Shown here piece by piece: positions 27,962 through 44,393 of a DNA stretch of 64,000 bases. The stretch is taken from positions 5,952,001-6,016,000 of the forward strand of contig NZ_CP088156.1 in assembly GCF_021088345.1 (NCBI RefSeq). Direction: 5' to 3'. The translations under genes and the position numbers were made by a program. Position 1 is the first letter of the stretch. Each line of letters begins with the position of its first letter. The notes under the pieces were generated by a model. It was not told where the DNA came from and did not search any database. It was given only the letters and a program-made list of their open reading frames with translations. Source of the stretch: Bradyrhizobium ontarionense (GTDB lineage Bacteria > Pseudomonadota > Alphaproteobacteria > Rhizobiales > Xanthobacteraceae).

Positions 27962-29320
27962 CTACGCCGCCGTCGCTGACGACTGTCCTTGTTCCGCCCG
28001 CGCGTCGTTATTAATAATAGGGACTTGTGCGTTGAGAATTTGCGAGCTGGTGGATTTCAGCCATCGACGGATGCTTGGATTATTCGTATTCAATGCCGCA
28101 AATACGGCGCTGCTGATCGCCTGTTGTTGTCGTCGTAGGTGATCCTCGAGCAATTTTGGGCGAGTGATGTAACCAGCGTTCACGCCTGGAATTGCATGGT
28201 TCATCAGCAGCTTTGCATCGAACTCCGATACGCCAGCTGCAGCTGCGATGGTGCGAAAGCTCTGCCGTAGATCGTTACCCCACTTCGACAGCGTGGCCCG
28301 ATCTTCCTTCTGCTCGACGATATGTCCCGATACGCTGTCGGCCGGGAATATCCACGCCCGGGCGTGCGACGGATGCATCTGATGTCCAAAGCGCATGACT
28401 CGGATCAGGCAGCGGATCATTTCGCGCGACAGGGGAATATCGAAGGCTCGCTTCGAGCCGCCCTTAGGCCTCGGGATGTGCAAGATCCGCCTTTTGAAGT
28501 CGATATCGCCGGGAGTTGTTTCCTGTAGCGCGGTCGGCCGACATCCCGAAAGCAGCGTGAAGAGATGGAATTCGCGGCGAATCGGATTGTCCAAGGCGGA
28601 TAGTTCGGCAAACCAGGCCTTTAGGTCACCTGGTCCCATGCCGGTGTCGCGTCGCTTCTCTCCATTCCAGTCGATCGCCCCGACGGGATTATCCGGCGGC
28701 AAGGTCTTGTTGGCTTTGCGGGCGTGGGCATAGATGGCTCGGAGAGTCCGCATGCTGCCATTCGCGATATAGGGTCCGTTCGCCTTGGTGATTTCGTCAT
28801 GCCTCTCGACCACCTTTGCCGGATGGCTGCCCAGATCCTCCAATGGCGTATTGAGCCAATTGGCGAAGATCCGCTCCACGTGATCCCGATAGCTCTCGAT
28901 CGTGCGCTCGCTGCGGCCTTTTCGGATCATGTGGGCGTCGCGATATCGCTCCCAAGCTTGCCTCAGCGTGATGCCGCCGGACTGGTGCGCCGTCGTGCCG
29001 TCACCGCCGCCCGCGATGCGACTCGGTTTCGATCCGGGCTTGGGGTGCTGACCCCGGCTGATCTGAGCAAGATATTCCTTGGCAGTCGCGCGGGCCGTCC
29101 TTGTCGAAAGCTCTTTGACGTCGCCGATTGCGACCCGGACGGACGTCGCTCGCTTGCCGTCTTCGCGGAGGTCGCCTTGGACGGTGAAGGTTCGTTTCCG
29201 CTTTCCGACGACGACGAAGAAGCCCTTCAGTTCGGTGTCCCGCGCCAGGTACCAGCCCTCGTTCGGGGTCGGCAGGCGAGCGATTTCCTTGTCGGTCAGC
29301 AGGAGGCGGACATCGGCCAT
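27962..29320 (-). CDS. Tyrosine-type site-specific recombinase (integrase)
   Basis: 452 residues, ATG 29320. An N-terminal arm-binding region (about 1-110, with GWYLARDTELKGFFVVVGKR) precedes a SAM-like core-binding domain (about 118-215, AWERYRDAHMIRKGRSERTI). The catalytic domain has LLSGCRPTAL (Arg I), the beta-hairpin Lys in HIPRPKGGSK, NDLRQSFRTIA (Arg II, with Asn where His is common) and LMNHAIPGVNAGYI (His and the nucleophile Tyr). It should catalyse integration or excision of a genomic island. A tRNA-like 3' end about 180 bases upstream is the probable attachment site. Confidence 0.88.
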   Translation of the reverse strand: MADVRLLLTDKEIARLPTPNEGWYLARDTELKGFFVVVGKRKRTFTVQGDLREDGKRATSVRVAIGDVKELSTRTARATAKEYLAQISRGQHPKPGSKPSRIAGGGDGTTAHQSGGITLRQAWERYRDAHMIRKGRSERTIESYRDHVERIFANWLNTPLEDLGSHPAKVVERHDEITKANGPYIANGSMRTLRAIYAHARKANKTLPPDNPVGAIDWNGEKRRDTGMGPGDLKAWFAELSALDNPIRREFHLFTLLSGCRPTALQETTPGDIDFKRRILHIPRPKGGSKRAFDIPLSREMIRCLIRVMRFGHQMHPSHARAWIFPADSVSGHIVEQKEDRATLSKWGNDLRQSFRTIAAAAGVSEFDAKLLMNHAIPGVNAGYITRPKLLEDHLRRQQQAISSAVFAALNTNNPSIRRWLKSTSSQILNAQVPIINNDARAEQGQSSATAA

Positions 29321-30152: not shown

Positions 30153-30608
30153 GTATTCGACTGCAGCCCATCTTGTGAGGATCTACAGAATGCGCTTTGA
30201 GGTAGCTCAAATTTGCCAAGTCGGCGCCGGCTTTGAGCAATCGATGCAGGCGCTTGCGGCAGCTATCCGTCCAAGCGTTGGACCAGCCTCGCGCGAGCAA
30301 ACCAGACGCATTCGATGCTTTTTGCGCCGACACTTCCCTCGGCTTGAGGATTGTCGGCGTGACCTGGATGCCTCGGGTTTGCTGCACGTCGCAATAGGGC
30401 GCGCACCGTGGGCTGTCTGTCGAAACCCTTCGCTCAAGGCCCGCTGGTGCGACTGGAGTGACCGGTCCGGCAGGTACCTTTCGCGTGGGTGCTGTTGCCC
30501 ATGCAGGTCATGCCAACGCGGGCGGCGCTCGTTGAGCGTTGTTAAGCGCCGCTGAGGGCTTTCGATGACCGTAGAAATTCGGATGAGCGCGCTCCTATCG
30601 CGGTCCGC
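30153..30608. other. Intergenic, no convincing gene
   Basis: About 450 bases between the small helical gene and the redoxin gene. Plus- and minus-strand frames of 70-190 codons show Arg/Ser-rich, non-protein-like translations without start signals. Nothing else recognised. Confidence 0.4.
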
Positions 30609-31205
30609 TTAGTCTTGTTCGCCCGGGGGCAGGGCGGAGGCTCTGCCGTACGGATAGAACAGTTCTTTTCTACCCTGCTGCCATGCGGCTCTCAGTTCCG
30701 GCGTCGTGATGTCCCAGTCCGGTCTGCATTTCCTGCTGACGGCTCGCAGGTCCTGCCGAAGTTCTTCGACGGTGGGACGTCCGAAGAACCAGTAGCCATT
30801 GTAGATCTTGTGAATGACAAGGCCTGGCTCCAGCACCACGACGTGCGGAATCATCGGATTATGGACGGGATCGGTGTACTCGGCGATATCGAGGTCCTTT
30901 TGCACGATGCGCCGCGTGTCGGACAGAAAGGGCCAGTGCGCTCCGACGCCGCTGCGATATTCGTAGGTCTGGGTAATGTTATCGGTCGTGATCGTGACCA
31001 GCCTGCAATAGCCCACCTCCATCTCACGGTGGAGCTCAAGCAATCCTTCGGCCTGACGCCGATCTTTTGGACAGAAGCCGCCGCGACCGAGCACGACCAC
31101 CATCGGATCCTGCCCCTGCAACTCGGAGAGCTTTCGATGCTTCCCTGTGTGGTCGCTAAGCTCGTAGTCCGGGAAGGTAGCCCCTGGCGTCATGTCGGAT
31201 CGCAT
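30609..31205 (-). CDS. Redoxin / AhpC-TSA-like thioredoxin-fold protein
   Basis: 198 residues, ATG 31205 with GGAGGC six bases upstream. The opening TPGATFPDYELSDHTGKHRK and the active-site segment VVVLGRGGFCPKDRRQAEGL are typical of AhpC/TSA redoxins, with a single cysteine at about residue 45 replacing the usual PxxxTxxC context. VHNPMIPHVVVLEPGLVIHK follows the fold's later strands. It may reduce peroxides or act as a redox sensor in the cytoplasm, since no signal peptide is present. It ends a minus-strand run after the MOSC-reductase fusion, 45 bases downstream. Confidence 0.75.
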   Translation of the reverse strand: MRSDMTPGATFPDYELSDHTGKHRKLSELQGQDPMVVVLGRGGFCPKDRRQAEGLLELHREMEVGYCRLVTITTDNITQTYEYRSGVGAHWPFLSDTRRIVQKDLDIAEYTDPVHNPMIPHVVVLEPGLVIHKIYNGYWFFGRPTVEELRQDLRAVSRKCRPDWDITTPELRAAWQQGRKELFYPYGRASALPPGEQD

Positions 31206-31250
31206 TTGAACGCCTCCTCTATGGCTCCATGAAGCCGCGGCCCGCGGCCA

Positions 31251-33011
31251 TCACAGATCGATCACGATGTCGCCCTGAGGGTGGGCGCAGCAGATCAGCA
31301 CGTTCCCCTCCATCGGTGCATCAACGGGGGCCGGCTGATAGCCGACCGTCCCAGCCATCAGTCCGGTCTCGCAGGTGTGGCATACGCCAGCTCGACATGA
31401 CCACCGCACAGGCACGTCACAGGCCTCCGCGAGCTCCAGCAGTGTCTTGTAGGAGGGCCCCCAGTGAACATCGAGACCGCTCCGGGCGAAGGACACCATG
31501 GGTCCTCCGCCGGCCGGTCCTGCTGGCAGGTGCGGCGCCTCGCGCGGGGATACGGCAATGCCCGGAGCAATCGAGGGGCCGGCACCGAACAACTCGGTGT
31601 GAATGCGCTCCGGCGAGACGCCCAGCGCAATGAGGCCAGCGGTCAAGTCGCTCATGAAGGTCGACGGACCGCAGATGTAGAAGTCGCCATCGTGGGGAAT
31701 GCCGAGCTCTGCAAGAGCCTGCGTGTTCAGCCGTCCGACAGCGTCGAAATCGGACTTGAGCCGATCCCCAGGCTCAGGCGCGCTGTAGCAGACGTAGCTG
31801 TGATGAAGCGCAAGCGCCGCGAGCAGTTCGCGCGTCTCGGCAGCAAAAGCATGCTCGCGGCCGTTGCGGGTTCCGTGCAACCACCAGATTTCTCTCGTCG
31901 AAGCTCCGGCTGATAGCGCGTGAAGCATCGCCAGCAGCGGCGTCACGCCAATTCCCGCGCTGAGGAGAACAACGGGCGCGTCGCCCGGGCGCAGCGTGAA
32001 AATGCCGCGCGCCGCGCTTGCTTGCACGATGTCACCAGCCCGCAGCTGCTCGTCGATGTAGGTGCCGGCCGCGCCGTGCGGCTCGCGCTTGACGCTGATG
32101 CGATAGAATGCGGCGTTCGGCTGTCCCGACAGCGAATAGCTGCGCATGAGCGCACTCTCGGATGAGGTTCCGAGGCGCAATACCACGAACTGTCCGGGAA
32201 GCGCGGTGGCGACAGGCTGGCCATCCACGGGCTCGAGCAGCAGCGAAGTCACGTTGTCGCTTTCGTGCACCTTGCGCGCCACGCGGAAGGAGCGAAACCC
32301 GGACCATGCCGGCGATGGGCCGGATGCCGGACCAAGTCCGGCGTTTCCCGATGCCGCTCCACCCTCGCTCTCTTGGGCGAGCAAGGCCTCGAAGGAACGG
32401 CGCCAACCGACGCTCAGCGCCGGAATGCGCAGTGCACGCTCCAGCTGTTCGCGAGGGTGACCGGGCAGATAAAGCAGCGCGTCGACCTCGGACACGCTCA
32501 TGCGCTCGGGTCCGGACGCGACCAGCGCGATCTCGTCGCCGGCTTCGACTTCCCCTTCCTCCAGCACACGAAGATAGAAGCCGGGCCTGCCGTGCTTGAC
32601 CAGCAGTGCGGCCATTTCCGGCTCATTCATGCGGACGCCGACCCGGTAACACGTCACGCGAGGCTGCGTCACCTCGAACAGAGCGCTTCCGATCCGGTAG
32701 CGGTCTCCGATGCACACCTCCGCGTCTGGCAAACCGTCGACGGTGAGGTTTTCGCCGAACTGTCCGTAAGTGAAGTCGGCGCGGCCCAACTGCTTCTGCC
32801 AGTATTGGTAAGACTCATGCTGATACACCAACACGGCCCGGTGCTCGCCGCCGTGGCCTGCCAAGTCTCCCTGTCCGTCGCCATCGATGTTCAGGCCGCG
32901 TACCTTGCGCGGTCCGCTCACCGGCGCCTTCCAAATGCCGGTATGGACCGTCTTGCCTTGCCAGGCGATGTCGCGCGGCAAGCCAACATTCACCGAAAGC
33001 ACGCGTCCCAT
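31251..33011 (-). CDS. MOSC - flavin reductase - [2Fe-2S] ferredoxin fusion protein
   Basis: 586 residues from ATG 33011 (GAGGGAGAG upstream). Residues 1-210 form a YiiM-like MOSC domain: DGDGQGDLAGHGGEHRAV, YGQFGENLTVDGL, the Cys in TQPRVTCYRVGVRM, and a 3-alpha tail. Residues about 240-480 are a phthalate-dioxygenase-reductase-type flavin/NAD module: MRSYSLSG (flavin), LLSAGIGVTPLLAML (nucleotide) and FYICGPSTFM. Residues about 500-586 carry a plant-type [2Fe-2S] site, WSCRAGVCHTCETG plus a distal Cys in LICCAHP. Each module is standard. It probably passes electrons from NAD(P)H through flavin and the iron-sulfur cluster to a molybdenum-cofactor-linked reaction. Confidence 0.88.
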   Translation of the reverse strand: MGRVLSVNVGLPRDIAWQGKTVHTGIWKAPVSGPRKVRGLNIDGDGQGDLAGHGGEHRAVLVYQHESYQYWQKQLGRADFTYGQFGENLTVDGLPDAEVCIGDRYRIGSALFEVTQPRVTCYRVGVRMNEPEMAALLVKHGRPGFYLRVLEEGEVEAGDEIALVASGPERMSVSEVDALLYLPGHPREQLERALRIPALSVGWRRSFEALLAQESEGGAASGNAGLGPASGPSPAWSGFRSFRVARKVHESDNVTSLLLEPVDGQPVATALPGQFVVLRLGTSSESALMRSYSLSGQPNAAFYRISVKREPHGAAGTYIDEQLRAGDIVQASAARGIFTLRPGDAPVVLLSAGIGVTPLLAMLHALSAGASTREIWWLHGTRNGREHAFAAETRELLAALALHHSYVCYSAPEPGDRLKSDFDAVGRLNTQALAELGIPHDGDFYICGPSTFMSDLTAGLIALGVSPERIHTELFGAGPSIAPGIAVSPREAPHLPAGPAGGGPMVSFARSGLDVHWGPSYKTLLELAEACDVPVRWSCRAGVCHTCETGLMAGTVGYQPAPVDAPMEGNVLICCAHPQGDIVIDL

Positions 33012-33048
33012 GCGGTTTCTCTCCCTCGACGACCGGAGCAAATCCCGG

Positions 33049-33177: not shown

Positions 33178-34230
33178 TTACACGCCGGCGGCGACGTCGA
33201 TAATCGCGTCGGCAAATGCCTTGGGAGCCTCCTGCGGCAGGTTGTGGCCGATACCGCCCTTGACGGTGCGGTGCGAGTATTTCCCCGAGAACATCTTTGC
33301 ATAGGCCGACGGCTCGAGATGCGGCGCGCCGTTGGCGTCGCCTTCCATGGTTATCGTGGGCACGCCGATGACGGGGGCTTGCGCGAGCCGCCTCTCGTCA
33401 TCGTCGTACTTCGCTTCGCCCTCGGCGAGACCGAGGCGCCAACGATAATTGTGAATCACGATCGCGACGTGATCCGGATTGTCGAAAGCCGTTGCGCTGC
33501 GCTCGAAGGTCGCGTCATCAAAGTGCCACTGCGGTGAAGCGAGCTGCCAGATCAGCTTCGAGAATTCGCGCCGATACTTGTCATAGCCGTCGCGGCCGCG
33601 TTCGGTCGCGAAATAGAACTGATACCACCACTGAAGTTCCGCCTTCGGCGGCAACGGCATCTTCCCGGCTTGCTGGCTGCCGATGAGATAGCCGCTGACC
33701 GAGGCCATTGCCTTGCAGCGCTCGGGCCACAGCGCCGCCAGGATGTTGGCGGTGCGCGCGCCCCAGTCGAAGCCGGCGATCGTCGCCTTGCCGATCTTGA
33801 GGGCATCCATCAGGGCGATGATGTCGGTCGCGATGGCCGACGGCTGTCCGTTCCGGATGGTCGCGTCGGACAGGAAACGCGTCGTACCGTAACCGCGCAA
33901 ATAGGGCACGATCACGCGATAGCCGGCCGAGGCAAGGATGGGCGCGACATCGACGAAGCTGTAGATGTCGTAGGGCCAGCCGTGCAGGAGAATCACGGGC
34001 GATCCGTCGGCGGGGCCAGCCTCGGCGTAACCGATGTCGAGGAGACCGGCATTGATCTGCTTCAGCGCGACAAACGACGGATTGCCTCCCGGCTTGACGG
34101 TCGTGCCGGCTTTCGCGGACTGACCGGTCTCAGCAGTGGCCGTTGCGCTCAGCGAAAGCTGTGCCGCCGCCAGCGTCATGACTGCACGGCCAAAGAAGCG
34201 ACGTCGACCATGATTGATCTTGTCGGACAT
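33178..34230 (-). CDS. Exported alpha/beta hydrolase (epoxide hydrolase / haloalkane dehalogenase-like)
   Basis: 350 residues, ATG 34230. A Tat-type signal (RRRFFGRAVMTLAAAQLSL) suggests export of a folded enzyme. The fold follows with VILLHGWPYDIYSF (oxyanion hole HGWP), the nucleophile elbow GFDWGARTAN with Asp, and a late GGIGHNLPQEAPKA carrying the catalytic His. Asp as nucleophile points to the epoxide hydrolase/dehalogenase branch. The element at 34332-34352 lies 102 bases upstream in the orientation of the gene, so it probably belongs to the proposed TAAC-box regulon. Confidence 0.82.
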   Translation of the reverse strand: MSDKINHGRRRFFGRAVMTLAAAQLSLSATATAETGQSAKAGTTVKPGGNPSFVALKQINAGLLDIGYAEAGPADGSPVILLHGWPYDIYSFVDVAPILASAGYRVIVPYLRGYGTTRFLSDATIRNGQPSAIATDIIALMDALKIGKATIAGFDWGARTANILAALWPERCKAMASVSGYLIGSQQAGKMPLPPKAELQWWYQFYFATERGRDGYDKYRREFSKLIWQLASPQWHFDDATFERSATAFDNPDHVAIVIHNYRWRLGLAEGEAKYDDDERRLAQAPVIGVPTITMEGDANGAPHLEPSAYAKMFSGKYSHRTVKGGIGHNLPQEAPKAFADAIIDVAAGV

Positions 34231-34331: not shown

Positions 34332-34352
34332 GTTATGTAGTGTTAGACGTTG
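34332..34352 (-). promoter_or_regulatory. TAAC box 1, upstream of alpha/beta hydrolase
   Basis: On the minus strand it reads CAAC-GTC-TAAC-ACTACA-TAAC: CAAC and the first TAAC start 7 bases apart, and the two TAACs start exactly 10 bases apart. The same spacing occurs at 35151, 41981 and 42949. Its direction matches the downstream gene (start codon at 34230). Direct repeats one helical turn apart are the usual target of OmpR/PhoB-type winged helices, three of which are encoded nearby. Confidence 0.6.
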
Positions 34353-34386
34353 AGAGCGGGTGTCCTGCTCTCGTGTCTTGCGGCCG

Positions 34387-35091
34387 CTACTCGAAAGACG
34401 CGTCGAAGATCTCGACGTCGATCAGAACAGGCTTGGCGTTCACGGTTCCGTCGGGTTGACGCGTCTGCGAGCGACGAAGGGTTGGCACCACGATGCCGTC
34501 GAAGCTCTCATGGGCCCAGGAGTAGTGCGCGACCTTCATGCCAAAAAGATCGTGATCGGTCCGGCGCTGCAGGGCATTCTCGTCAAAGTAAAAGATCTGC
34601 TCGCCCGCAAAGGTGACAAGTTTGGGCGGCAATTGTGCACGCAGGCGCCGCCAGGTTTCGATGCCTTCCCCCCAGGACGGCAGTTCCTCGACGACAACAT
34701 CGGGACGGGCGAGAAGAAAGGGCGTGGTCAGATAGTTCCAGATCGTGACGCCGCAGAAGAAGATCAGATGCAGTTCGTCCGCGAGAACTTGCGGGCCGGC
34801 GTCAAATGCGAGGTCAGGGTTGCTCCAGGTCTGCAAGACTTCGCCATCGACGCTTTCGATCGTGATCGCGTCGGGCTGAAACGAGCCCGACCGATCGCCG
34901 CCGGTGATGCCGGTGAAGCGGATCGATTGTGTTCGTGTCGATCCCTCCGCGATGACGTCCTTGAATTCGCGGGCACGTCCTGCGCTCGAGAACAGCGTCC
35001 CACCAACGGAAAGATGCAGCGTGAACCGGCTCAGGCTGTTCCAGCGGGCGATGCCGCCGTTCGCGTCGATTACATCGTCAAGAAGAGCCAT
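34387..35091 (-). CDS. Conserved hypothetical protein
   Basis: 234 residues from ATG 35091; the open frame extends 15 codons upstream. No signal peptide or membrane segment. It begins ALLDDVIDANGGIARWNSLS and has an alternating beta pattern (LSVGGTLFSS, DAITIESVDGEVLQTW, DGIVVPTLRRSQTRQPDG) reminiscent of the outer-membrane-lipoprotein-carrier/LolA-like half-barrel shape, but I cannot name the family. It has its own TAAC box 60 bases upstream, so it probably belongs to the same regulon as the hydrolases around it. Confidence 0.7.
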   Translation of the reverse strand: MALLDDVIDANGGIARWNSLSRFTLHLSVGGTLFSSAGRAREFKDVIAEGSTRTQSIRFTGITGGDRSGSFQPDAITIESVDGEVLQTWSNPDLAFDAGPQVLADELHLIFFCGVTIWNYLTTPFLLARPDVVVEELPSWGEGIETWRRLRAQLPPKLVTFAGEQIFYFDENALQRRTDHDLFGMKVAHYSWAHESFDGIVVPTLRRSQTRQPDGTVNAKPVLIDVEIFDASFE

Positions 35092-35150
35092 GTCTTGTCG
35101 TATCCACCGAGAGGTGGAATCACCATGGCGGGGCACGGGCAGCTTGGCGT

Positions 35151-35171
35151 GTTAGAAATTGTTAGGAGTTG
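35151..35171 (-). promoter_or_regulatory. TAAC box 2, upstream of hypothetical gene
   Basis: On the minus strand it reads CAAC-TCC-TAAC-AATTTC-TAAC, with the same 7- and 10-base offsets as box 1. It lies 60 bases upstream of the start codon at 35091 and points toward it. It also lies between that gene and the stop codon of the first winged-helix regulator, in a gap too short for another gene. Confidence 0.6.
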
Positions 35172-35210
35172 CAAGGGCTCGACGCGGCGGTATGACGTAT
35201 GAAGATGCCC

Positions 35211-38054
35211 TCAATTGATGGCGCCGAGGAAATCCTTTGCACGGGCCAGATCGCGGGTCGCGAGCCCTTCCTGATATTGTGCCACGAGCGGCGCCAGCAT
35301 GCTGCTTGCCTCGCCGGTGCGTCCGGCCCGCTGCCAGATGCGGCCGAGGCTCAGGGCTCCGCGCAGCTCCCAGGCGAGGGCGCATTGCCGGCGCGACAGG
35401 GCCTGCGAATTCTCGAGGCAGCTCTCGGCCTCCGCGTCGTGCCCCAATTGCGCGAGGATGTCCCCCCTGACCCGCAGCATCTCCGGCATGTCGAAGGATT
35501 CGCCGTGGTCGCCGATCTGGGCGATCGCCTCGTCGATCGTGCCCAGAGCTTCTTCGGGCCTGCCTTGTGACGCCAGTCCCTCCGCAAGCGCCGTCGCGAA
35601 GACGGTCGTCATGATCCGGTGCCGCGTCGCATACAACGTGGCCTGGCTGCGGCGCAGGTGCTCGATGCCGCCGTCGACGTCGCCGCGCTGCAGGAGAAGC
35701 AAGCCCTTCTGACCGATACCGACCGCGTGGTAAGGCCCGAGGAAGTGTCGCGCAGCATGGTCGATCAGCCGCTCGATCATGCTCTCGGCGCTGCTGCAGT
35801 CGCCCACCCACAGAAACACGTAGATCGTCCAGATCAGCGCAATGCCCAGCGTCAGGGGCTGTTCGAGCGCCTCGGCCTCGCGAACCGTGTATCGGGCCGC
35901 CTCAATGGCGCGATCGGGCCGGCCGGTGAGCCAGAGGCCGCGCGCCAGCGCGACCAGCGCGACGATGCGGTCGTCATAGCCGAGATGCCCGATGTTCAGC
36001 CGCTGCGAGCTCGGGTTGTGCACCATCGCGCTTTCGCAGAACTGAACGGCCTTGTCCTGATTGCCGATCAGGTGATGTGCCACGCCAAGCATCCATTCGA
36101 CGTTCAGCGTGCCGGTCGGGTCGTTCAGTCTGCTGGCAACGCTCTCGCCCTGCTCGCCGGTCGCGAGCGCTCCGTGAAAATCCCCGACGCGGGTCAGATA
36201 AATGTGCAGTCCGCGCAATAGCCATAGCTGCCAATGCAGGTCGTCGAGCTCCCGGGCGAGCTGCAGGCTTTGTGTGAAGGCCGACTGGACCGCTTCGGTA
36301 TTGCCTTGCGTGAACATCACGGAGACGCCGAGCGCCGCCTGCAGGGTCATCTCCTGCCGGGCGTCCGCAGGGGCCGTGTCGAGCGATGCCAGCGCCTGCT
36401 GGGTCCAGCGGTAGCACTCCGTCAGCAGCGTCAGCTCGAGGAAGAACTGGGCCGCCGAAGCGGCCAGATCGACGCCGATGACCCGGTCGCCTTCCTCGGA
36501 GAAGCCCCAGGCCAGCGCGGCCCGCACGTTGGGTAGGTGATCTGCATAGGGCAGGAACCCGCCTGCGCTCTGCAAGCCGTTGGACTTGAGGGAGATATCG
36601 AGCAGGAAGTTGCGGAAATATTCGGCGTGAGCGCGCGCGGCCCGCGGCGCTTCTCCGCTCTCGACGAGCTTGTCCGCGACGAAGGCGCGGGTGGTGTCGA
36701 GCAGTCGATACCGGAGCCGCCGCTGCGCAGGAGAGGTCGCGATGAGGGATTTGGAGAGCAGGTTCGAGATCGCCTCCATGGCCTCCGGCTCGCTGACGCC
36801 CTGGCATGATGCGACGGCAAGCGCGGCCTCGAGCGTGAACGGACCGACGAACACCGACAGGCCGCGCAGCGTGGCGCTTTCGGTCGCCGGCAGCAGGTCG
36901 TAGCTCCAGCCGAGCGCCGCGCTCAGCGTCTGGTGCCGGGGGATGGCGGTGCGCCGCCCGCGCCACAACAGCGAGAAGCGGCTGTCGAGAAGTTCGGCGG
37001 TCCCGGCAATTCCGTAGGCGTTGACCCGGCCCGCGGCGAGTTCGATCGCCAGGGCGATGCCGTCGAGGCGCCGGCAGATGTCGGCAACGAGAGGCGCCTC
37101 GTCATGGCTCAGCTCGAATTCGCTCAGGCTCTCGGCAATTCGCTCGACGAAGAGCTGGCTCGCGGGATAGGCGAGAATATCGGCGACGCCAAGTCCGTCC
37201 CGTTGCGGCGGACAATCCAGCGGGAACAGTCGGTAGACACGCTCGCCCTCCGAGCGAAGCGATTCGCGACTCGTCGCCATGACGTGCAGGCTCGGCGCCT
37301 CGCGAACCAGGCGTTCGGCCAATGGCGCGAGCTCGTCGAGGAGGTGCTCGCAGCTGTCGAACACCAGCAGCATTTGCCGGCTGCGCAGGAATGTCAGCAG
37401 CCCCGGTATCGGATCCTCGGAATTGACGGTCAGGCCGAGCGCGCTGGCAATGCTGCCGGGCACCAGCCTGGCATCGGTCACCGCGCCGAAATCGACGAAG
37501 CTGACTTGGCCGTCGAACGCAGCAAGCTGGCGATGCGCAACGGCCAGAGCGACCGAGGTCTTGCCGATGCCGCCCGGACCGACAATCGTGACGAACCGAT
37601 GAAGGGAGAGCTCGGACGTGATCTTTTCAACCGCATCGTCCCGCCCGATCATCCTGGCGAGGGGCGCTGGAAGGACGCGGACCGACGAGGCGATCTCGGT
37701 CGGTCGATCCTCCAACGGCGCAGGCCGCCATAGCGGCACGGCGAAACAATAGCCGCGTCCGGGCACGTTGACGACGTAGCGGGAGCCTTCGCCGCCGTCG
37801 CCAAGCGCCTTGCGCAGCGCGGCGATGTGGAACCGCAGGCTGCCCTCGTCCACATTCACGTCGGCCCACACCCGCTTGACGAGCTCGCGCTTGTCGACGA
37901 CTTCACCGGCGCGTTCGGCAAGACAGATCAGGATATCGAGCGCGCGGCCGCCGACGTGAAGCGGCGCGCCGTCCCTCTCCAGCAGCCGCGACTTCGGAAA
38001 CAGCCGAAATGGCCCGAAAGAAACGGCCAAATCCTGGTTGTCATACTCTGCCAC
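35211..38054 (-). CDS. Winged-helix / NTPase / TPR-type regulator (paralogue 1)
   Basis: 947 residues from GTG 38054. Residues about 12-108 are an OmpR-type winged helix (FGPFRLFPKSRLLERDG, then VDEGSLRFHIAALRKALGD and VPGRGYCFAVPL). An AP-ATPase/NB-ARC-like module follows: Walker A VGPGGIGKTSVALA near residue 160, QMLLVFDSCEHLLDEL (Walker B-like), MATSRESLRSEGE (sensor), LDGIALAIELAAGRV and a winged region near ALGWSYDLLP. The C-terminal 450 residues are helical, TPR-like. Such proteins act as ligand-gated one-component transcription activators. Two paralogues lie at 38980 and 51479. Confidence 0.85.
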   Translation of the reverse strand: MAEYDNQDLAVSFGPFRLFPKSRLLERDGAPLHVGGRALDILICLAERAGEVVDKRELVKRVWADVNVDEGSLRFHIAALRKALGDGGEGSRYVVNVPGRGYCFAVPLWRPAPLEDRPTEIASSVRVLPAPLARMIGRDDAVEKITSELSLHRFVTIVGPGGIGKTSVALAVAHRQLAAFDGQVSFVDFGAVTDARLVPGSIASALGLTVNSEDPIPGLLTFLRSRQMLLVFDSCEHLLDELAPLAERLVREAPSLHVMATSRESLRSEGERVYRLFPLDCPPQRDGLGVADILAYPASQLFVERIAESLSEFELSHDEAPLVADICRRLDGIALAIELAAGRVNAYGIAGTAELLDSRFSLLWRGRRTAIPRHQTLSAALGWSYDLLPATESATLRGLSVFVGPFTLEAALAVASCQGVSEPEAMEAISNLLSKSLIATSPAQRRLRYRLLDTTRAFVADKLVESGEAPRAARAHAEYFRNFLLDISLKSNGLQSAGGFLPYADHLPNVRAALAWGFSEEGDRVIGVDLAASAAQFFLELTLLTECYRWTQQALASLDTAPADARQEMTLQAALGVSVMFTQGNTEAVQSAFTQSLQLARELDDLHWQLWLLRGLHIYLTRVGDFHGALATGEQGESVASRLNDPTGTLNVEWMLGVAHHLIGNQDKAVQFCESAMVHNPSSQRLNIGHLGYDDRIVALVALARGLWLTGRPDRAIEAARYTVREAEALEQPLTLGIALIWTIYVFLWVGDCSSAESMIERLIDHAARHFLGPYHAVGIGQKGLLLLQRGDVDGGIEHLRRSQATLYATRHRIMTTVFATALAEGLASQGRPEEALGTIDEAIAQIGDHGESFDMPEMLRVRGDILAQLGHDAEAESCLENSQALSRRQCALAWELRGALSLGRIWQRAGRTGEASSMLAPLVAQYQEGLATRDLARAKDFLGAIN

Positions 38055-38156
38055 GTACTTTTCGTCCGTCGAACGTTTCGCTCATTTGCGTATGATTCTT
38101 CGAACTAGAACCGACGCCTAGCGGGCTGCTAGGCCGACGGCATCGCCGTGTAGCCG

Positions 38157-38190
38157 CAACAATCATAACAAAATCTTGCAACGTCTAACG
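38157..38190 (+). promoter_or_regulatory. TAAC box 3 (incomplete), upstream of HisKA_2 kinase gene
   Basis: The plus strand has CAAC (38157), TAAC (38166), CAAC (38179) and TAAC (38186). The last pair, GCAAC-GTC-TAACG, keeps the 7-base offset seen in the other boxes. The two TAACs are 20 bases apart, twice the usual 10, with TTGC in the middle register. It points toward the kinase start at 38259, 70 bases away, and lies in the divergent gap with regulator 1. It is weaker than the others. Confidence 0.4.
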
Positions 38191-38258
38191 AGCGAAAATC
38201 GCAGGCCTCCTCCATGATGGGTGCAGGCCAAGGCTGATTTTTAGCGGGGGAGGCTGCG

Positions 38259-38927
38259 ATGCGCGGTATCGGAACTCGTCCAAAAGACGATATTGTTCAA
38301 TCTCATCGGGCCGCCAATCTCGGCGACCAGGCGGACTGGGACCTGGTGCTGCGGGAATCGCATCATCGGATGAAGAACACGCTGACGCTGCTCGGTGCGT
38401 CAGTCCGCCGCGATCTGACGCGGGCGAGGCCTGGCGAAGTGTCGGCTGCCGTGGACCGGTTCGAGCGGCGTCTCGTCGCCTTCGGCAGGCTCTATCAATT
38501 CTTGTCGAATGACGAGGATCTTCCGGCGGTCTCCGTCGCAACCTTCTTCGAGGCACTCTGCGGGGCCGTGTCGGAGGCAATCCTGGAGCCTGCAGGGATC
38601 CGTTGTGAAGCCGCCATCGAGGACGGCATGCTGCCGGCTTCGCAATGTCATCGGCTCGCCCTGATGCTGACCGAGCTCATCACAAACGCGGCAAAGCATG
38701 CCTTTCCGACCAAGAAGGATGCACTGATCCGTGTCGATGTGGTCCGGCGCGACGGATGCTGGTTCTGCACGGTGGCCGACAACGGGGTCGGTGTGACCGG
38801 GCCGCTTCAGGGCACGGGTAGTCGTATTCTGGAAGGCCTGGCGCGAAGCATCCGCGCCCGGATGCACGGTGAGACCGGGCAAGACGGCACGCGCGTGACC
38901 ATTGCAATGTCAGCCCTCGCCGATTGA
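38259..38927 (+). CDS. HisKA_2/HWE-type sensor histidine kinase without sensor domain
   Basis: 222 residues, ATG 38259 with GGGGGAGG upstream. The phospho-acceptor box is RESHHRMKNTLTLLGASVRR (His near residue 35), followed by the N-box LTELITNAAKHAFP and a G-box DNGVGVTG. The kinase core is complete, but only about 30 residues precede the His box. There is no PAS, GAF or membrane sensor and no response regulator alongside. It may take its signal from a partner protein, possibly the adjacent NTPase regulators. It lies between, and is divergent from or convergent with, two of them. Confidence 0.85.
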   Translation: MRGIGTRPKDDIVQSHRAANLGDQADWDLVLRESHHRMKNTLTLLGASVRRDLTRARPGEVSAAVDRFERRLVAFGRLYQFLSNDEDLPAVSVATFFEALCGAVSEAILEPAGIRCEAAIEDGMLPASQCHRLALMLTELITNAAKHAFPTKKDALIRVDVVRRDGCWFCTVADNGVGVTGPLQGTGSRILEGLARSIRARMHGETGQDGTRVTIAMSALAD

Positions 38928-38979
38928 AGTCGGTCGTCGAAGTTCTTCGTAGCGCCCGGCCCAGTTGCGTCGAATGCGA

Positions 38980-41844
38980 TCACGACAAACTCGCCAGCAG
39001 CCGCTTTGCGGCAAGTAGATCGCCCGTGTCGAATCCCTCGTTGAACCTGTCAAACACCGGCCGGAGCATCTGGTCCGCGGCCGGCCGCTGGCCTTTGCCG
39101 GCCAACACCACCGCAAGATCATGCGCTGCGCGCAATTCCCAGCCTCGCGCGCCCTGACTGCGGCTCAGCGCCAGCGACTGCTCCAGACAGGCCTGGGCTT
39201 CCTCGATGCGCGGCTGGGCCATCGACTGAAGCAATCCTGCCTTCACCCGCAACAATTCCGGCATGTAGCAGGTGTCGCCATTGCGACCGACATTCCGGAT
39301 CGTCTCGTCGAGGTGGGCGATTGCCCCATCGAGCCGGCCCGTCGCTGCGAGGCCTTGTGCCAGCGAGATGTTGAACTCGGTGGTGATGAGCTCGTAGCGC
39401 ACGGCATGGATCGCTGCGAGGGAAGCGCTCAGGCTCGCAACGCCCTCAACGGCGTCGCCTTGCCGAATGGCAAGTTGCGCTCTGCGCGCGCGCCCGACGG
39501 CTGCGAGCGGACCGAGCGAGTTTGACTCGGCCATGGTGATGGATGCATCGATATGCCTCTCGGCATTGCGCAGATCTCCGGTCCACAGGAAGATCGATGC
39601 GGACCATGCGAGCAGGACGGTCACCGAAGCCGGATGATCCATCTGCCGCGCGCCATCGACGAACTCATGGACGCGTTGCACGGCCTGGGCCGGATAGCCC
39701 TGCAGCCACAGCGTGCGTGCCAAGGCGATGCCGGCCCGGTAATGCCTGTCATGGACGAGATAGATCGTGCTGCTCTGTTGTAACGGCGACCAGGTCTTGA
39801 ACAGCTCTTCGAGCTCGACGCGCGCGCCGCTCAGATCTCCCATCATCAGAAGCGATCGACCCAGGATGGAATGTGCGAGCGCAAGCGCTGCGGGGTCGTC
39901 GACATCGTCGGCGACGGTCCGGCACCGCCGCGCAAAGGACAGCGCAACGTCGAAGTCGCCGCCCCGGAAGTGGAACATGTGGAGCATGCCGAGCAGACCG
40001 GCTTCATTGGGGGCGTCACGCTCTTCCTGCGCGATCTCCAGGCTGCTGTTCAGGGCGGCGCGTGCGTGCTCATTTTCTCCGTAAAGATGCATCGACGAGA
40101 TGCCGAGGCCAGCCCGCAGATGCATCTGCTCCGATCTGCTCGCGGCCTGGCCGGCGGCCAATGCCCGTTCCGACCAGTGATGGCATTCGGGCAGCAGCGA
40201 CATGGCCAGTAGGACCGGCACGGCGGCGGCTGCGAGTTCGATGCCAGTTCGCAGGTCGCCGTTCGGGCCGAAGCACCATTCCAGCGCAGCGCGAGCATTG
40301 CTGACGGCGGCAAAATAGGGAGCCCGTTCTGTCCCGGACAAGAGGCTGGACCATTCGGAGCCGGCTCGCTTGAGCCATTGCCGGCAATAGCGGGCATGGC
40401 GAACCGCCAGGGCCGCGGCCTCGCGGTCGTCGGCCGCCCTGTCGAGCGCGTAGGTGCGCGTGGTGTCGAGCAGGCGATATCGCATGACGGTGCCGAGCGA
40501 ACGGGTCGCGACCATCGATTTGGCGACCAGGCTGTCGATCGCCGCAAACACGTCGGCCTGATCGAGCCCGTCGCCGGCCACGACGGCCAGGGCTGCGTCC
40601 AGCGTGAAGTTTCCGACGAAGATCGCAAGCCTGCGAAGCACCATGCGCTCGGTTTCGGAGAGCAGGCCGTAGCTCCAGTCGAGTGTCGCCTGGAGCGTCT
40701 GCTGACGTGGCGGCGCGGTGCGGGGGCCCGCCCACATTTGCGACAGCCGCTGGTCGAGAAGGGCCTCGGTTTCGTTCAACCCGTAGACATCGACGCGACG
40801 TGCCGCCAGCTCGATGGCAAGCGCGACTCCGTCGAGCTTGCGGCAAATGCGTGCGATGATGGCGGCATCGGAGTCGTCGAAGACCAGATTGGCGCCGCTG
40901 GCCGTTGCGCGTTCGACGAACAACTGGGTGGCTGGAAACGTCCGGACGGTGTCGGCCGAGAGGTGTTCCCGGTCGTCGACAGGAAAGGCAAGCGGGTCCA
41001 GCCGGTAGACATGCTCGCCCTCGACCTGGAGCGTTTCGCGGCTGGTGGCGAGAATATGAACCTGCGGCGCGTTGTTGAAGATCGCCGCCGCGAGCACGGC
41101 GACGGCCGCGATCAGGTGCTCGCAGGTATCGAGAACGAGCAGAAGATACTTGTCCCTGAGATGGGCAATCAGGCTGGACATAACGTCCTGGCTCTGTACG
41201 GACAGGCCGAGCGTGGAGGCGACGCCGGTAGCGACAAGACTGGGATCGCTCAGCATGCTCAGATCGACGAAGAGAACTGCGCCGTTGAAGACGGCGCGTA
41301 GTTGATGGGCAGTCGCCACCGCGACGGTGGTCTTGCCAATGCCGCCAGAGCCAACGATGGTCACAAACCGCTCGGCGTAGAGCTGTTTCGACAGCCTTTC
41401 GAGGTCGTCCTCGCGATCGATCATCGCGCTCAGCCGGTTGGGCAGATTGTAGTGCACGAATGCCGGCGAACCGTCGGAGAGGGGATGAGGCTGGTTGCGA
41501 ACCGGGCGGGGCGTCCGCGAGATCGCCGCGACAAAGCTGTAGCCGCGTCCGGGTGTCGTCGAGACGTAGCGCGCGCCGTCCTTGCCGTCGCCGAGCACCT
41601 TGCGCAGGGCCGCGACGTGGAAGCGCAGGCTGCCCTCCTCGACCGCAATGCCGGGCCAGACCTTCGCAATCAGCTCGGTCTTGTCGATGATCTCGTTGGG
41701 GCGCGACAGCAGCGTCACCAGGATTTCATAGGCCCGCGCCCCGAGCTCCATGCGGACACCATTTCTCGTCAGCCGTCTCTCGTTGACGGTCAGCTCAAAC
41801 GGACCGAACGAGATCGTTTCCTGACTCTGCGCTGGCGGCGGCAT
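38980..41844 (-). CDS. Winged-helix / NTPase / TPR-type regulator (paralogue 2)
   Basis: 954 residues if ATG 41844 is used; the frame is open 53 codons farther, but that part looks non-coding. The winged helix (about residues 12-105) has ISFGPFELTVNERRL, VEEGSLRFHVAALRKVLGD and TPGRGYSFVAAI. The NTPase has VGSGGIGKTTVAVATA (Walker A), LLLVLDTCEHLIAAV (Walker B-like), LATSRETLQVEGE and LDGVALAIELAARRV. The C-terminal half is TPR-like. It looks more divergent from paralogues 1 and 3 than those are from each other. It is divergent from the VOC gene across the best TAAC box. Confidence 0.85.
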   Translation of the reverse strand: MPPPAQSQETISFGPFELTVNERRLTRNGVRMELGARAYEILVTLLSRPNEIIDKTELIAKVWPGIAVEEGSLRFHVAALRKVLGDGKDGARYVSTTPGRGYSFVAAISRTPRPVRNQPHPLSDGSPAFVHYNLPNRLSAMIDREDDLERLSKQLYAERFVTIVGSGGIGKTTVAVATAHQLRAVFNGAVLFVDLSMLSDPSLVATGVASTLGLSVQSQDVMSSLIAHLRDKYLLLVLDTCEHLIAAVAVLAAAIFNNAPQVHILATSRETLQVEGEHVYRLDPLAFPVDDREHLSADTVRTFPATQLFVERATASGANLVFDDSDAAIIARICRKLDGVALAIELAARRVDVYGLNETEALLDQRLSQMWAGPRTAPPRQQTLQATLDWSYGLLSETERMVLRRLAIFVGNFTLDAALAVVAGDGLDQADVFAAIDSLVAKSMVATRSLGTVMRYRLLDTTRTYALDRAADDREAAALAVRHARYCRQWLKRAGSEWSSLLSGTERAPYFAAVSNARAALEWCFGPNGDLRTGIELAAAAVPVLLAMSLLPECHHWSERALAAGQAASRSEQMHLRAGLGISSMHLYGENEHARAALNSSLEIAQEERDAPNEAGLLGMLHMFHFRGGDFDVALSFARRCRTVADDVDDPAALALAHSILGRSLLMMGDLSGARVELEELFKTWSPLQQSSTIYLVHDRHYRAGIALARTLWLQGYPAQAVQRVHEFVDGARQMDHPASVTVLLAWSASIFLWTGDLRNAERHIDASITMAESNSLGPLAAVGRARRAQLAIRQGDAVEGVASLSASLAAIHAVRYELITTEFNISLAQGLAATGRLDGAIAHLDETIRNVGRNGDTCYMPELLRVKAGLLQSMAQPRIEEAQACLEQSLALSRSQGARGWELRAAHDLAVVLAGKGQRPAADQMLRPVFDRFNEGFDTGDLLAAKRLLASLS

Positions 41845-41980
41845 CGTTGCGTCGTCTTTCTTAGCGCTTTGAACTGGTTTGGATTTTAGGTCGGAACCGG
41901 CGTCGGGCGCCAGATCAAATCGGGCGCAAGCCCCGCCGGGCGGGGATCCGGCGGCCGCGACGGGCCTGCCGAGCTGCTCG

Positions 41981-42011
41981 CAACAGCTAACGACCTCTAA
42001 CAACCCATAAC
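41981..42011 (+). promoter_or_regulatory. TAAC box 4, upstream of VOC gene
   Basis: CAAC (41981), TAAC (41988), TAAC (41998) and TAAC (42008) on the plus strand: offsets of 7, 10 and 10 bases. The flanks CTCG before and GCAA after are shared with box 5 at 42949, and over about 35 bases the two copies differ at only a handful of positions. It lies 91 bases upstream of the VOC start codon and also in the divergent promoter region of regulator 2, so it could serve both. Confidence 0.7.
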
Positions 42012-42101
42012 GCGCAATATTCCTTGGATCGCGCGATGGTCACCCTGCCGATTGGGGCTTCGAAAAGCACGAAGTCAGATCCTCGAACCAGGGAGGCCGC
42101 C

Positions 42102-42791
42102 ATGACCACGACCGAGATGGGCCGGCAAGCTGACGCCAGGCCCTCGACATCGCGTGGAATTGATCTAAGGCTCGAGATCGTTGTCATTCCCGTCTCCGAC
42201 GTCGATCGGGCGAAGTCCTTCTACACGGGTCTGGGCTGGAGGCTGGACGCCGATTTTGCGTCCGGCCCCGACTACCGCGTGATCCAGTTCACGCCGCCCG
42301 GCTCGGCCTGCTCGGTGATCTTTGGCACGAACGTGACGGCAGCGGCGCCCGGTTCGGCGCAAGGCTTGTACCTCGTCGTCTCGGATATCGAAGCGGCCCG
42401 CAAGGAGCTGCTCGGCCGGGGTGTCAAAGTCAGTGAGCCGTTCCACGACGCCGGCGGCAATTTCACCGGACCCGATGCGCCATACCTGTTCGGCCGCCGT
42501 CGCATCGACGGTGTCGATCCCGAGCGTGGCAGCTATCGCTCGTTCGCCTCGTTCAGTGATCCCGACGGCAATGGCTGGCTCTTCCAGGAGGTGACCGCAC
42601 GACTTCCCGGACGCGTCGAAGCCGCCGACACGGCGTTCACCTCGTCAATAGAGCTCGCCGCAGCGCTGCGGCGTGCAGCGTCCGCGCATGGCGAGCACGA
42701 GAAGCGCGCCGGTGGGCACGATGACAACTGGGCGGACTGGTACGCCGACTACATCGTGCGTGAGCAGGCCGGCGAGCCCCTGCCGTCCTGA
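42102..42791 (+). CDS. VOC superfamily (glyoxalase-like) protein
   Basis: 229 residues, ATG 42102 with GGGAGG upstream. The first 150 residues form a VOC fold: LEIVVIPVSDVDRAKSFYTG, DYRVIQFTPPGSACSVIFG, GLYLVVSDIEAARKELLGRG and ASFSDPDGNGWLFQEV (C-terminal Glu ligand). About 75 extra residues follow, ending DNWADWYADYIVREQAGEP, a tail typical of VOC proteins annotated as bleomycin-resistance or glyoxalase-like in rhizobia. The substrate is unknown. It follows TAAC box 4 and is followed by box 5 and the hydrolase operon. Confidence 0.8.
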   Translation: MTTTEMGRQADARPSTSRGIDLRLEIVVIPVSDVDRAKSFYTGLGWRLDADFASGPDYRVIQFTPPGSACSVIFGTNVTAAAPGSAQGLYLVVSDIEAARKELLGRGVKVSEPFHDAGGNFTGPDAPYLFGRRRIDGVDPERGSYRSFASFSDPDGNGWLFQEVTARLPGRVEAADTAFTSSIELAAALRRAASAHGEHEKRAGGHDDNWADWYADYIVREQAGEPLPS

Positions 42792-42948
42792 CGCGCGATA
42801 ACAGGATCAGGAGAATCGTGATGGCGCTGCGTCGTCTCGATGTGGTCGAGGGTCGCAGCGCCGTGAGGTTTTGCTGGATGCGTCCGGGACGCCTCGCCTC
42901 GAGTTCGCGCACGAGATCCATGGCGGGATCTACGCGTCGCCCGTCTCG

Positions 42949-42979
42949 CAACGGCTAACGCGGTCTAACAATCCATAAC
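42949..42979 (+). promoter_or_regulatory. TAAC box 5, upstream of the epoxide hydrolase operon
   Basis: CAAC (42949), TAAC (42956), TAAC (42966) and TAAC (42976), with offsets of 7, 10 and 10 bases, nearly a copy of box 4. Flanks match box 4: CTCG before CAAC and GGCAA after the last TAAC. It lies 101 bases upstream of ATG 43080, in the same orientation. The intergenic sequence from 42792 to 42948 between the VOC stop and this box shows no convincing gene. Confidence 0.7.
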
Positions 42980-43079
42980 GGGCAAATGGCCGGCGCCTGC
43001 GCCAATGTGTTTGCAGCACGAACCGATCGATCCACTTCGAATTCGGTCAACGTCGCCAGCAAAGCCAGGGAGATTGACG

Positions 43080-44393
43080 ATGCCGATACAAATACGCACC
43101 GATGTCCTGAATCCCGACCGCCGCCAGTTGCTGGGCCAAGCCGCGATCGGCGCGGTTGCTGCGAGCGTCGCGAGCCTGCTGCCTCCGGATCGCGCGCAGG
43201 CGACGGCGAGCGGCGCAATCCGCCCATTCCGGGTCGACGTTCCCGAGGAAGACCTGCTCGACCTGCGCCGCCGCCTGGCGGCCACGCGGTGGCCGGATCG
43301 CGAGATCGTCACCGACCAGTCGCAGGGCGTGCAATTGACGACCGTCCAGCAGCTCGTGCGCTACTGGCAGACCGACTACGACTGGCGCAAGATGGAAGCG
43401 CGGCTGAATGCCCTGCCGCAGTTCATCACCGAGATCGACGGCGTCGACATCCATTTCATTCACGTGCGCTCCAAGCACGAGAACGCCCTGCCGATGATCG
43501 TCACGCATGGCTGGCCCGGCTCGATCATCGAGCAGATGAAGATCGTTGGCCCGCTCACCGATCCCACGGCGCACGGCGCCAAGGCATCCGAGGCGTTCGA
43601 TCTGGTCATCCCGTCGCTTCCGGGCCATGGCTTTTCCGGCAAGCCGGCGACGCTGGGCTGGGACCCGCAGCGCGTCGCGCGTGCATGGGTCGTGCTGATG
43701 AAGCGGCTCGGATACACCCGTTATGTGGCCCAGGGCGGGGACTGGGGCAACGCCGTGACCGAGCAGATGGCGCTGCTGGCGCCGCCCGAGTTGCTCGGCA
43801 TCCACACCAACATGCCCGCAACGGTTCCCGATGATATCGCCAAGGCGCTGCAGCCTGGCGGGTCGCGCCCATCCGGACTCTCCGCCGACGAGAACTCTGC
43901 CTACGACCAGCTCGACGATTTCTACAAGCACGGCCTCGGCTATGCGATCGAGATGTCGAACCGGCCGCAGACGCTCTATGGCCTCGTGGACTCGCCGGCG
44001 GGTCTTGCGTCCTGGATGCTCGATCACGACGCGCGCAGCACCGCCATGATTGCGCGGGTGTTCGACGGAAAGATCGAAGGTCTGTCGCGGGATGACGTCA
44101 TCGACAACATCACCCTCTATTGGCTGACCAATACGGCTGTGTCGTCGGCGCGCCTGTACTGGGAGAACAAGCTGGTCTTTTTCGAACCCAAGCACGTCGA
44201 GATTCCGGTCGCCGTCAGTGTGTTCCCGGACGAGATCTATGCGGCGCCGCGCAGCTGGGCCGAGAAGGCCTACGCCAAGCTCATCCACTACAACCGCCTC
44301 GACAAGGGCGGGCACTTCGCGGCCTGGGAGCAACCCGCGCTGTTCTGCGCGGAAATGCGTACCGCATTCCGTCCGCTGCGCCAGTCGATCTGA
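43080..44393 (+). CDS. Epoxide hydrolase (juvenile-hormone-type, EHN domain)
   Basis: 437 residues, ATG 43080 with AGGGAG upstream. A twin-arginine-like N-terminus (RRQLLGQAAIGAVAASVASL) suggests export. The EHN-type N-terminal domain follows (IRPFRVDVPEEDLLDLRRRL, TDYDWRKMEARLNALPQF), then the hydrolase fold with VTHGWPGSIIEQ (oxyanion hole), QGGDWGNAVTEQ (nucleophile Asp) and a late KGGHFAAWEQP (catalytic His). It opens epoxides to diols. It heads a long plus-strand operon and has TAAC box 5 upstream. Confidence 0.88.
   Translation: MPIQIRTDVLNPDRRQLLGQAAIGAVAASVASLLPPDRAQATASGAIRPFRVDVPEEDLLDLRRRLAATRWPDREIVTDQSQGVQLTTVQQLVRYWQTDYDWRKMEARLNALPQFITEIDGVDIHFIHVRSKHENALPMIVTHGWPGSIIEQMKIVGPLTDPTAHGAKASEAFDLVIPSLPGHGFSGKPATLGWDPQRVARAWVVLMKRLGYTRYVAQGGDWGNAVTEQMALLAPPELLGIHTNMPATVPDDIAKALQPGGSRPSGLSADENSAYDQLDDFYKHGLGYAIEMSNRPQTLYGLVDSPAGLASWMLDHDARSTAMIARVFDGKIEGLSRDDVIDNITLYWLTNTAVSSARLYWENKLVFFEPKHVEIPVAVSVFPDEIYAAPRSWAEKAYAKLIHYNRLDKGGHFAAWEQPALFCAEMRTAFRPLRQSI

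Follow-up and report, generated by a model that had tools for sequence, protein, structure and literature searches.

AfsR, in the accessible part of its published description, joins an OmpR-type domain to a BTA domain, a NOD module and TPRs, is activated by ATP binding, and acts at repeats spaced by 11 base pairs (bp), the last lying 8 bp from the -10 element (PMC10936776). Here we describe a stretch of 64,000 nucleotides from Bradyrhizobium ontarionense (contig NZ_CP088156.1, positions 5,952,001 to 6,016,000, forward strand; the window, numbered from its first letter) in which five copies of a tandem TAAC box lie in a block (34332 to 42979) that also encodes two large proteins combining a winged helix, a STAND-type nucleoside triphosphatase (NTPase) and TPRs, named R1 and R2. 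Judged from sequence, the boxes are very probably operators of the adjoining regulators of this build (R1 and probably its paralogues), which would activate transcription from a position abutting the -35 region. An earlier sequence-based note, the original prediction, had proposed such an operator for the winged-helix regulators of the block, common to five transcription units; this reading is supported and favored because of the rarity of the box, its conservation, the 10-bp spacing beside independently chosen relatives, the covariation of its letters with the recognition helix and the fixed distance to a -10-like element. The boxes, the 10-bp period, the tie to the regulator family across orders and classes, the -10 spacing and the helix covariation were all computed directly.

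The motif CAACN3TAACN6TAAC occurs in exact form four times in the window (Table 1), where 100 dinucleotide shuffles of the window gave an expectation of 0, and the 8,435,845-base genome has no exact copy besides these four, all inside the block. With up to one mismatch, the genome yields 8 matches (the four exact ones, a copy that overlaps in the same box, and three that are scattered), compared with 11 matches and 0 exact ones for the reversed pattern used as a control. The two-unit word TAACN6TAAC is found 24 times genome-wide (8.4 Mb), 6 times within the block. The motif is rare and clustered in its own genome, which speaks against a random density, and all four exact copies lie where the original prediction had placed them, as does the further TAAC after another 10 bases that forms the fourth unit of boxes 3 and 4. 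The weaker copy proposed at 38157-38190 is real and could be narrowed to box 5, which resolves into TAAC (38166-38169), CAAC (38179-38182) and TAAC (38186-38189), with TAAC starts 20 bases apart; this layout between the R1 and kinase orthologues is kept in 17/17 relatives examined (17 related loci were looked at; further loci had both genes). All five boxes are oriented to the next gene and end about 60-102 bases before its likely start codon, the starts being inferred, in agreement with the earlier estimate of about 60-100.

By eye, an outer dyad resembling GCTCG...CGAGC flanks both ends of many boxes (those at 41981 and 42949, and boxes of relatives), and the separation of its arms follows the unit number in steps of 10 bp.

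Table 1. Boxes, regulators and adjoining genes in the window, with box scores under the 12-site matrix described in the text.
Feature	Position	Strand	Description	Score
Box 1	34332..34352	-	Exact motif 34332-34352; three units, CAAC-7-TAAC-10-TAAC; upstream of AB1 and, further on, of the MOSC/FAD/2Fe-2S and AhpC/TSA-like genes	38.0
Box 2	35151..35171	-	Exact motif 35151-35171; three units; upstream of HYP; weakest of the five	15.6
Box 5	38166..38189	+	Weak form; upstream of the HisKA_2/HWE kinase gene, between it and divergent R1	26.0
Box 3	41981..42011	+	Exact motif 41981-42001; four units; upstream of the VOC/glyoxalase-like gene, divergent from R2	29.2
Box 4	42949..42979	+	Exact motif 42949-42969; four units; upstream of the EHN operon	40.3
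R1	35211..38054	-	Winged helix (Trans_reg_C), STAND-type NTPase and TPR; helix DEGSLRFHIAALRK	
R2	38980..41844	-	R1 paralogue (42%); helix EEGSLRFHVAALRK; start inferred	
R3	51479..54328 (end approximate)	-	R1 paralogue (51%); outside the block; start inferred	
AB1	33178..34230	-	Alpha/beta hydrolase	
HYP	34387..35091	-	Conserved protein without Pfam match; start set at internal ATG	
Kinase	38259..38927	+	HisKA_2/HWE-type histidine kinase; Pfam matches to kinase domains only	
VOC	42102..42791	+	VOC/glyoxalase-like protein; start inferred at internal ATG	
EHN	43005..44393 (open reading frame; likely start 43080)	+	EHN epoxide hydrolase, first gene of the operon	
AhpC/TSA-like and MOSC/FAD/2Fe-2S genes	30609..33041	-	Downstream of AB1; the pair has its own box elsewhere in relatives	

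The regulators carry an N-terminal winged helix, with Trans_reg_C scores of 55.6 (R1), 51.2 (R2) and 56.5 bits (R3) against a cut-off of 26.2, and their recognition helices are close to identical. No receiver-domain match and no BTAD match was found in R1, R2 or R3 up to an E value of 10. A Walker A motif, GxxGxGKT, is present in 10/10 aligned members of the family; matches of R1-R3 to NB-ARC, AAA_22 and nSTAND are mostly below cut-off, with R2 above it for NB-ARC and AAA_22, and TPR_12 is above cut-off in R1 and R2 and below it in R3. The best solved-structure match of R1 is the DNA-binding domain of CadC (E value 1.6e-10), and the NCBIfam models for HilA and CadC score under their cut-offs. 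The genome encodes a fourth full paralogue, R5 (L187, G000:C1:2908460-2911279; 46% to R1), and one further weak match. Of the three large winged-helix proteins that the original prediction assigned to the block, R1 and R2 do lie in it, while R3 sits beyond, 8.5 kb past the last box. R3 and R5 were considered as owners of nearby boxes and dropped, as no site was found.

Across the genus, the exact box is present in 73/146 genomes, with 157 matches in total against 52 for the reversed pattern. It accompanies the regulators, being found in 48/54 genomes with an R1 orthologue versus 25/92 without one, and in 67/112 with any family member (E value <= 1e-60) versus 6/34 without. Regulators of this build occur in 112/146 genus genomes at that threshold; outside the genus their distribution is patchy (22/297 genomes of the order at 1e-120 and, in the class, 11/385 at 1e-90, both counts including the genus itself). 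Sixty genus regions were hand-picked among the matches listed because they bear a box, and the link to the regulators was tested on other loci, chosen by regulator. The gene order AB1-HYP-R1//kinase-VOC-EHN is kept widely among the fetched loci, the boxes persist without R2, and box 2 shows almost no variation across the genus loci listed. Two R1 genomes, G094 and G140, have one-mismatch boxes, which precede HYP (L193, L194). Paralogous clusters whose regulator is 42-44% like R1 also bear boxes (L055, L061, L094), as does L065, where the likeness is 36% over a part.

In 16/16 loci that hold the MOSC/FAD/2Fe-2S gene, all of which had been fetched because of a box, a second class of box precedes this gene by 67-114 bases, and no regulator match was found in these fetched stretches. 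The operon that follows this box in relatives stands behind AB1 in B. ontarionense and behind a main-cluster box in L201. The local regulon originally proposed is therefore upheld as a predicted operator shared within the block and not as a purely local one, because the box also precedes the MOSC/FAD/2Fe-2S gene elsewhere in the genomes of relatives. In L054 (9944-9964), a box of this type is followed almost directly, by eye, by the C-terminal end of an AhpC/TSA-like gene, perhaps a deletion that left the operator only. Seven loci with exact matches and no regulator match in the fetched stretch (L057, L059, L075, L085, L091, L092, L097) are treated as probable chance occurrences. L088, L089 and L090 have no regulator at the strict cut, and L089 has a weak one in another comparison. 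A CAACACCTAACCAAACTTAAC-and-kin motif (type c, six loci) was left out, since it has no TAACGRGC tail and a different context near an Lrp-like gene, and is probably unrelated. This CAACACCTAACCAAACTTAAC-like motif is conserved in L043, L044, L064, L076, L083 and L093 together with a GCTCA...TGAGC-like dyad, and an Lrp-like gene is nearby in L043, the sole locus read.

The position of the box relative to the promoter bears on how the bound protein would act. Counting offsets from the last TAAC, after which a tail TAACGRGC is common, A28 is found in 14/14 and T32 in 13/14 representative genus boxes, in those with three and four units alike, compared with 3/14 for the next best A..T pair; these representatives were selected by us and include two of HYP type, and with L088 and L089 taken by sequence the set was partly chosen by resemblance. 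Among the relatives of box 5, A28 and T32 are present in 17/17 kinase-gene boxes; at other, non-cluster sites A28 is found in 13/20, and over the named loci in 27/35 (binomial p 5e-12, background 0.22) or, once L273, L274, L275, L279, L281 and L283 are dropped to thin relatives, in 22/29. This pattern would be expected from a -10 hexamer NANNNT at offsets 27-32, which separates the -10-like hexamer from the last TAAC by 23 bp. G25 and C26 each occur in 9/14 representative boxes, and a GC extension preceding the -10 is described for Bradyrhizobium in the accessible part of one report (PMC4842269).

With the last unit at a fixed distance upstream of a -10-like element, and by convention near -39 to -36, the bound protein would abut the -35 region or replace the contact made there. 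Two to four regulator monomers would occupy the box in head-to-tail order, with roughly one monomer on each (C/A)TAAC unit, and the 10-bp period would place them on one face of the helix. The STAND/TPR part may first sense a signal, after which transcription would be activated. Binding, oligomerization, activation rather than repression and the nature of the signal are what we infer from the computed features. The main rival keeps the same operator and lets the regulators repress, the bound array blocking RNA polymerase at the -35; we regard it as unlikely. Such a block would fit a box that abuts the -35, which falls at offsets 4-9 counted from the last TAAC when the -10 hexamer is put at 27-32. 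However, the -35 region is not TTGACA-like, the constant phase to the -10 across boxes of three and four units suits activation, and among the domain relatives both AfsR and MalT activate transcription according to the accessible part of the AfsR study (PMC10936776). Activation is favored by the geometry.

To relate the repeats to the regulators independently of the box, 39 loci (42 regulators, own R5 included) were chosen by regulator alone, with the main-cluster loci (own window, G063, G392) and a G021 locus fetched for its box left out, and the best two candidates per genome were scored. All pairs of 4-mers at spacings of 5-25 within 1.5 kb of the regulator were counted and ranked against expectation. 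The leading pairs stand at exactly 10 bp (TTAA, TAAC/GTTA, TTAC/GTAA and TAAA/TTTA), followed by TTAA and TAAC at 20. TAAC at 10 bp accounts for 10 pairs (8 loci) where 0.2 are expected, with 4 farther away in four times more DNA. A second set of 80 loci from named genomes, sharing at least one locus with the first (L129 and L223), was reduced by setting aside 31 as Bradyrhizobium (L229 counted in), leaving 20 beta/gamma and 29 alpha loci. Across the 20 beta/gamma loci there are 14 occurrences of TAAC at 10 bp, spread over 12 loci (9 from Pseudomonas), versus 0.1 expected. The 29 alpha loci, for which only the TAAC/TTAC rows were used as the top-word table was swamped by a run of N, contain it 6 times at 10 bp, 8 times at 20 and 0-1 times at every other spacing. 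One locus of another order, L177, has an exact three-unit box. In a further locus, L175, three boxes reading TAAC-T(C/A)A(C/T)-TAACG(G/T)GC accompany an epoxide-hydrolase homologue (58%) and a regulator resembling R2 (53%).

Sites from other genomes also recover the boxes of the window. A 53-bp matrix built from 12 such sites, all preceding genes unrelated to the five target genes, ranks the five boxes as the top five in the window (Table 1) and the next match at 11.1; on five shuffled windows its maxima range from 6.0 to 12.8. A 13-site matrix returns the same five with a wider gap (42.9, 42.7, 42.0, 20.5 and 20.4; next 9.3; shuffled maxima <=6.9), and several of its sites precede AB1 or EHN homologues, one (L207) occupying the place of box 1. 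A sub-threshold, box-like stretch at 30534 (minus), CTTAACAACGCTCAACGAGC, is sixth with the 12-site matrix (11.1) and lower with the 13-site matrix (7.7), and scores inside the range of the shuffled maxima.

The letters of the unit vary with the regulator. Beside helices in which F stands four residues after the serine/asparagine (LRF), the last unit is (C/A/G)TAAC in 17/19 cases and NTTAC in 2, whereas beside helices of V/I/M type it is TTAAC or NTTAC in 29/36, (C/A/G)TAAC in 5 and another in 2. The association of helix type with unit letters has a non-redundant Fisher p of 5e-6, uncorrected for relatedness and computed without rows that lack a helix or have another unit. It is possible, and offered here tentatively, that a single recognition-helix residue (F versus V) switches the unit from (C/A)TAAC to TTAAC/TTTAC within a class of NLR-like one-component regulators, found throughout the Pseudomonadota, that would sense toxic small molecules and activate transcription. 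This class would share one promoter grammar (10-bp tandem units, the last 23 bp from the -10), distinct from the one that AfsR and the other OmpR-type activators described so far use.

These comparisons also bear on a reading in which CtrA, a response regulator like PhoB or some other OmpR-type or unlinked factor binds the box, whose proximity to the regulators of the block would merely reflect a co-inherited cluster. CtrA reads TTAA-N7-TTAA and OmpR-type factors read direct repeats, which would suit such a protein, as would the many R1 relatives without a nearby site. However, CtrA and PhoB repeats are 11 bp apart, while TAAC occurs at 11 bp 0-1 times per set against 6-14 times at 10 bp, and the repeat recurs beside family members in other orders and classes, before other targets, and covaries with the helix; we therefore judge a foreign OmpR-type protein quite improbable. 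The CtrA/PhoB and ECF16 readings were rejected on spacing and sequence. Tandem units at 10 bp, two to four in number, are not known as a feature of sigma-factor sites. Least probable of all is that the box is no activator site but an extracytoplasmic function (ECF) sigma promoter, with TAAC serving as the -35 element. For a hydrogen peroxide regulon, Bradyrhizobium EcfF reads GTAAC(g,a)-N14-15-(c,t)CG(t,a), according to the accessible part of the source (PMC3420878). In the five window boxes, however, the last TAAC is preceded by A or C and never by G, and no fitting -10 follows by eye; moreover, winged-helix regulators from several classes have the 10-bp spacing nearby, and the repeat varies with their helix. 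An ecfQ promoter with TAACAAT was dropped as well, the conserved elements there being GAAAC repeats in the same accessible text (PMC3420878).

Several observations weigh against the boxes being operators of these regulators. The matrix scan found no box beside R3, and none was detectable adjoining R5. Six of the 54 R1 genomes lack the exact box; G037, G081 and G073 have none at R1 and just a partial box about 1.6 kb from a neighboring paralogue, no box was found at the R1 locus of G144, and a second R1 copy in G083 (L200) has none. No recognized site was seen in 27/39 regulator-chosen loci or, under a second rule, in 18/49 non-Bradyrhizobium loci. One promoter type is common to seven Pseudomonas loci, so the counts are inflated by relatedness. 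T32 is present in just 7/20 non-cluster sites, and the shuffle maximum of 12.8 comes near the weakest box (15.6). The reversed pattern has 52 matches in the genus, a control that overstates chance because its words are commoner (89 versus 24 copies of the two-unit pattern).

Genes behind boxes elsewhere were identified as well. EHN epoxide hydrolases follow boxes adjoining the regulator in Afipia (L210), Mesorhizobium (L289) and Skermanella (L218), as identified with Pfam, and in Mesorhizobium L216, from its N-terminus. Other genes in this position encode alpha/beta hydrolases (L264, L285), a flavodoxin-type protein (L274), DUF1348/SnoaL proteins (L177, L261, L131, L268), OsmC and TauE (L211), HlyD-type efflux proteins (L175, L089), an SDR protein and a cupin (L175), a cytochrome P460 (L065), an AraC-type regulator (L140) and a sigma-70 region 2 protein (L237); several script-chosen open reading frames behind boxes resembled wrong-frame picks and were excluded. 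The hydrolase, epoxide hydrolase, glyoxalase-like, OsmC-like, flavodoxin-type and redox targets suggest toxic electrophiles or oxidants as the signal, and their common theme may be the detoxification of such compounds.

Across 16 relatives, 29 columns of HYP are invariant, and the protein is encoded repeatedly next to these regulators. Between AB1 and the MOSC gene lies a 28-residue open reading frame (33135-33049, minus), translated by eye as MRKAIIVAALTVAILLALIQFVLPLLFG and possibly encoding a membrane peptide. A tyrosine-recombinase-type integrase, recognized by eye, is encoded beside the block (27962-29320, minus).

A defined predicted operator with a fixed promoter geometry makes the regulons of these regulators predictable and testable, and the covariation of helix and letters is a candidate specificity code. 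The cluster of the window, with the oxidoreductase operon in trans in relatives, offers a ready model in a nitrogen-fixing genus. A literature search, whose coverage excluded most subscription journals, found no operator, targets or signal for these regulators, nor a proteobacterial regulator of this build whose site is known.

Compared with described systems, the box shares its TAAC core and a possible link to oxidants with the promoters of the EcfF (ECF16) regulon of Bradyrhizobium, which is oxidant-responsive; those promoters differ in having GTAAC and a CG-type -10, and no tandem repeat is described in the accessible part of the source (PMC3420878). OmpR/PhoB response regulators have, like R1-R3, a Trans_reg_C winged helix and tandem direct half-sites, whereas R1-R3 carry a STAND NTPase and TPRs instead of a receiver domain, and their boxes a 10-bp rather than an 11-bp period. 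The one-component regulators CadC, ToxR and HilA are similar in the DNA-binding domain, that of CadC being the best structural match of R1, and regulators of this type have no NTPase module and read other sequences. AfsR and the large SARPs of Streptomyces, as far as the accessible text describes them, unite an OmpR-type DNA-binding domain, an NTPase (NOD/STAND) and TPRs in one protein and likewise use direct repeats of about one helical turn at a site adjoining a weak promoter (PMC10936776). SARPs differ, in the same text, by their BTA domain, by repeats of 11 or 22 bp and by a 3' repeat 8 bp from the -10, compared with no BTAD match, 10 bp and 23 bp in the R1 family. The R1 family resembles AfsR in outline and is not a SARP, because it has no BTA domain, a 10-bp period and a longer distance to the -10.

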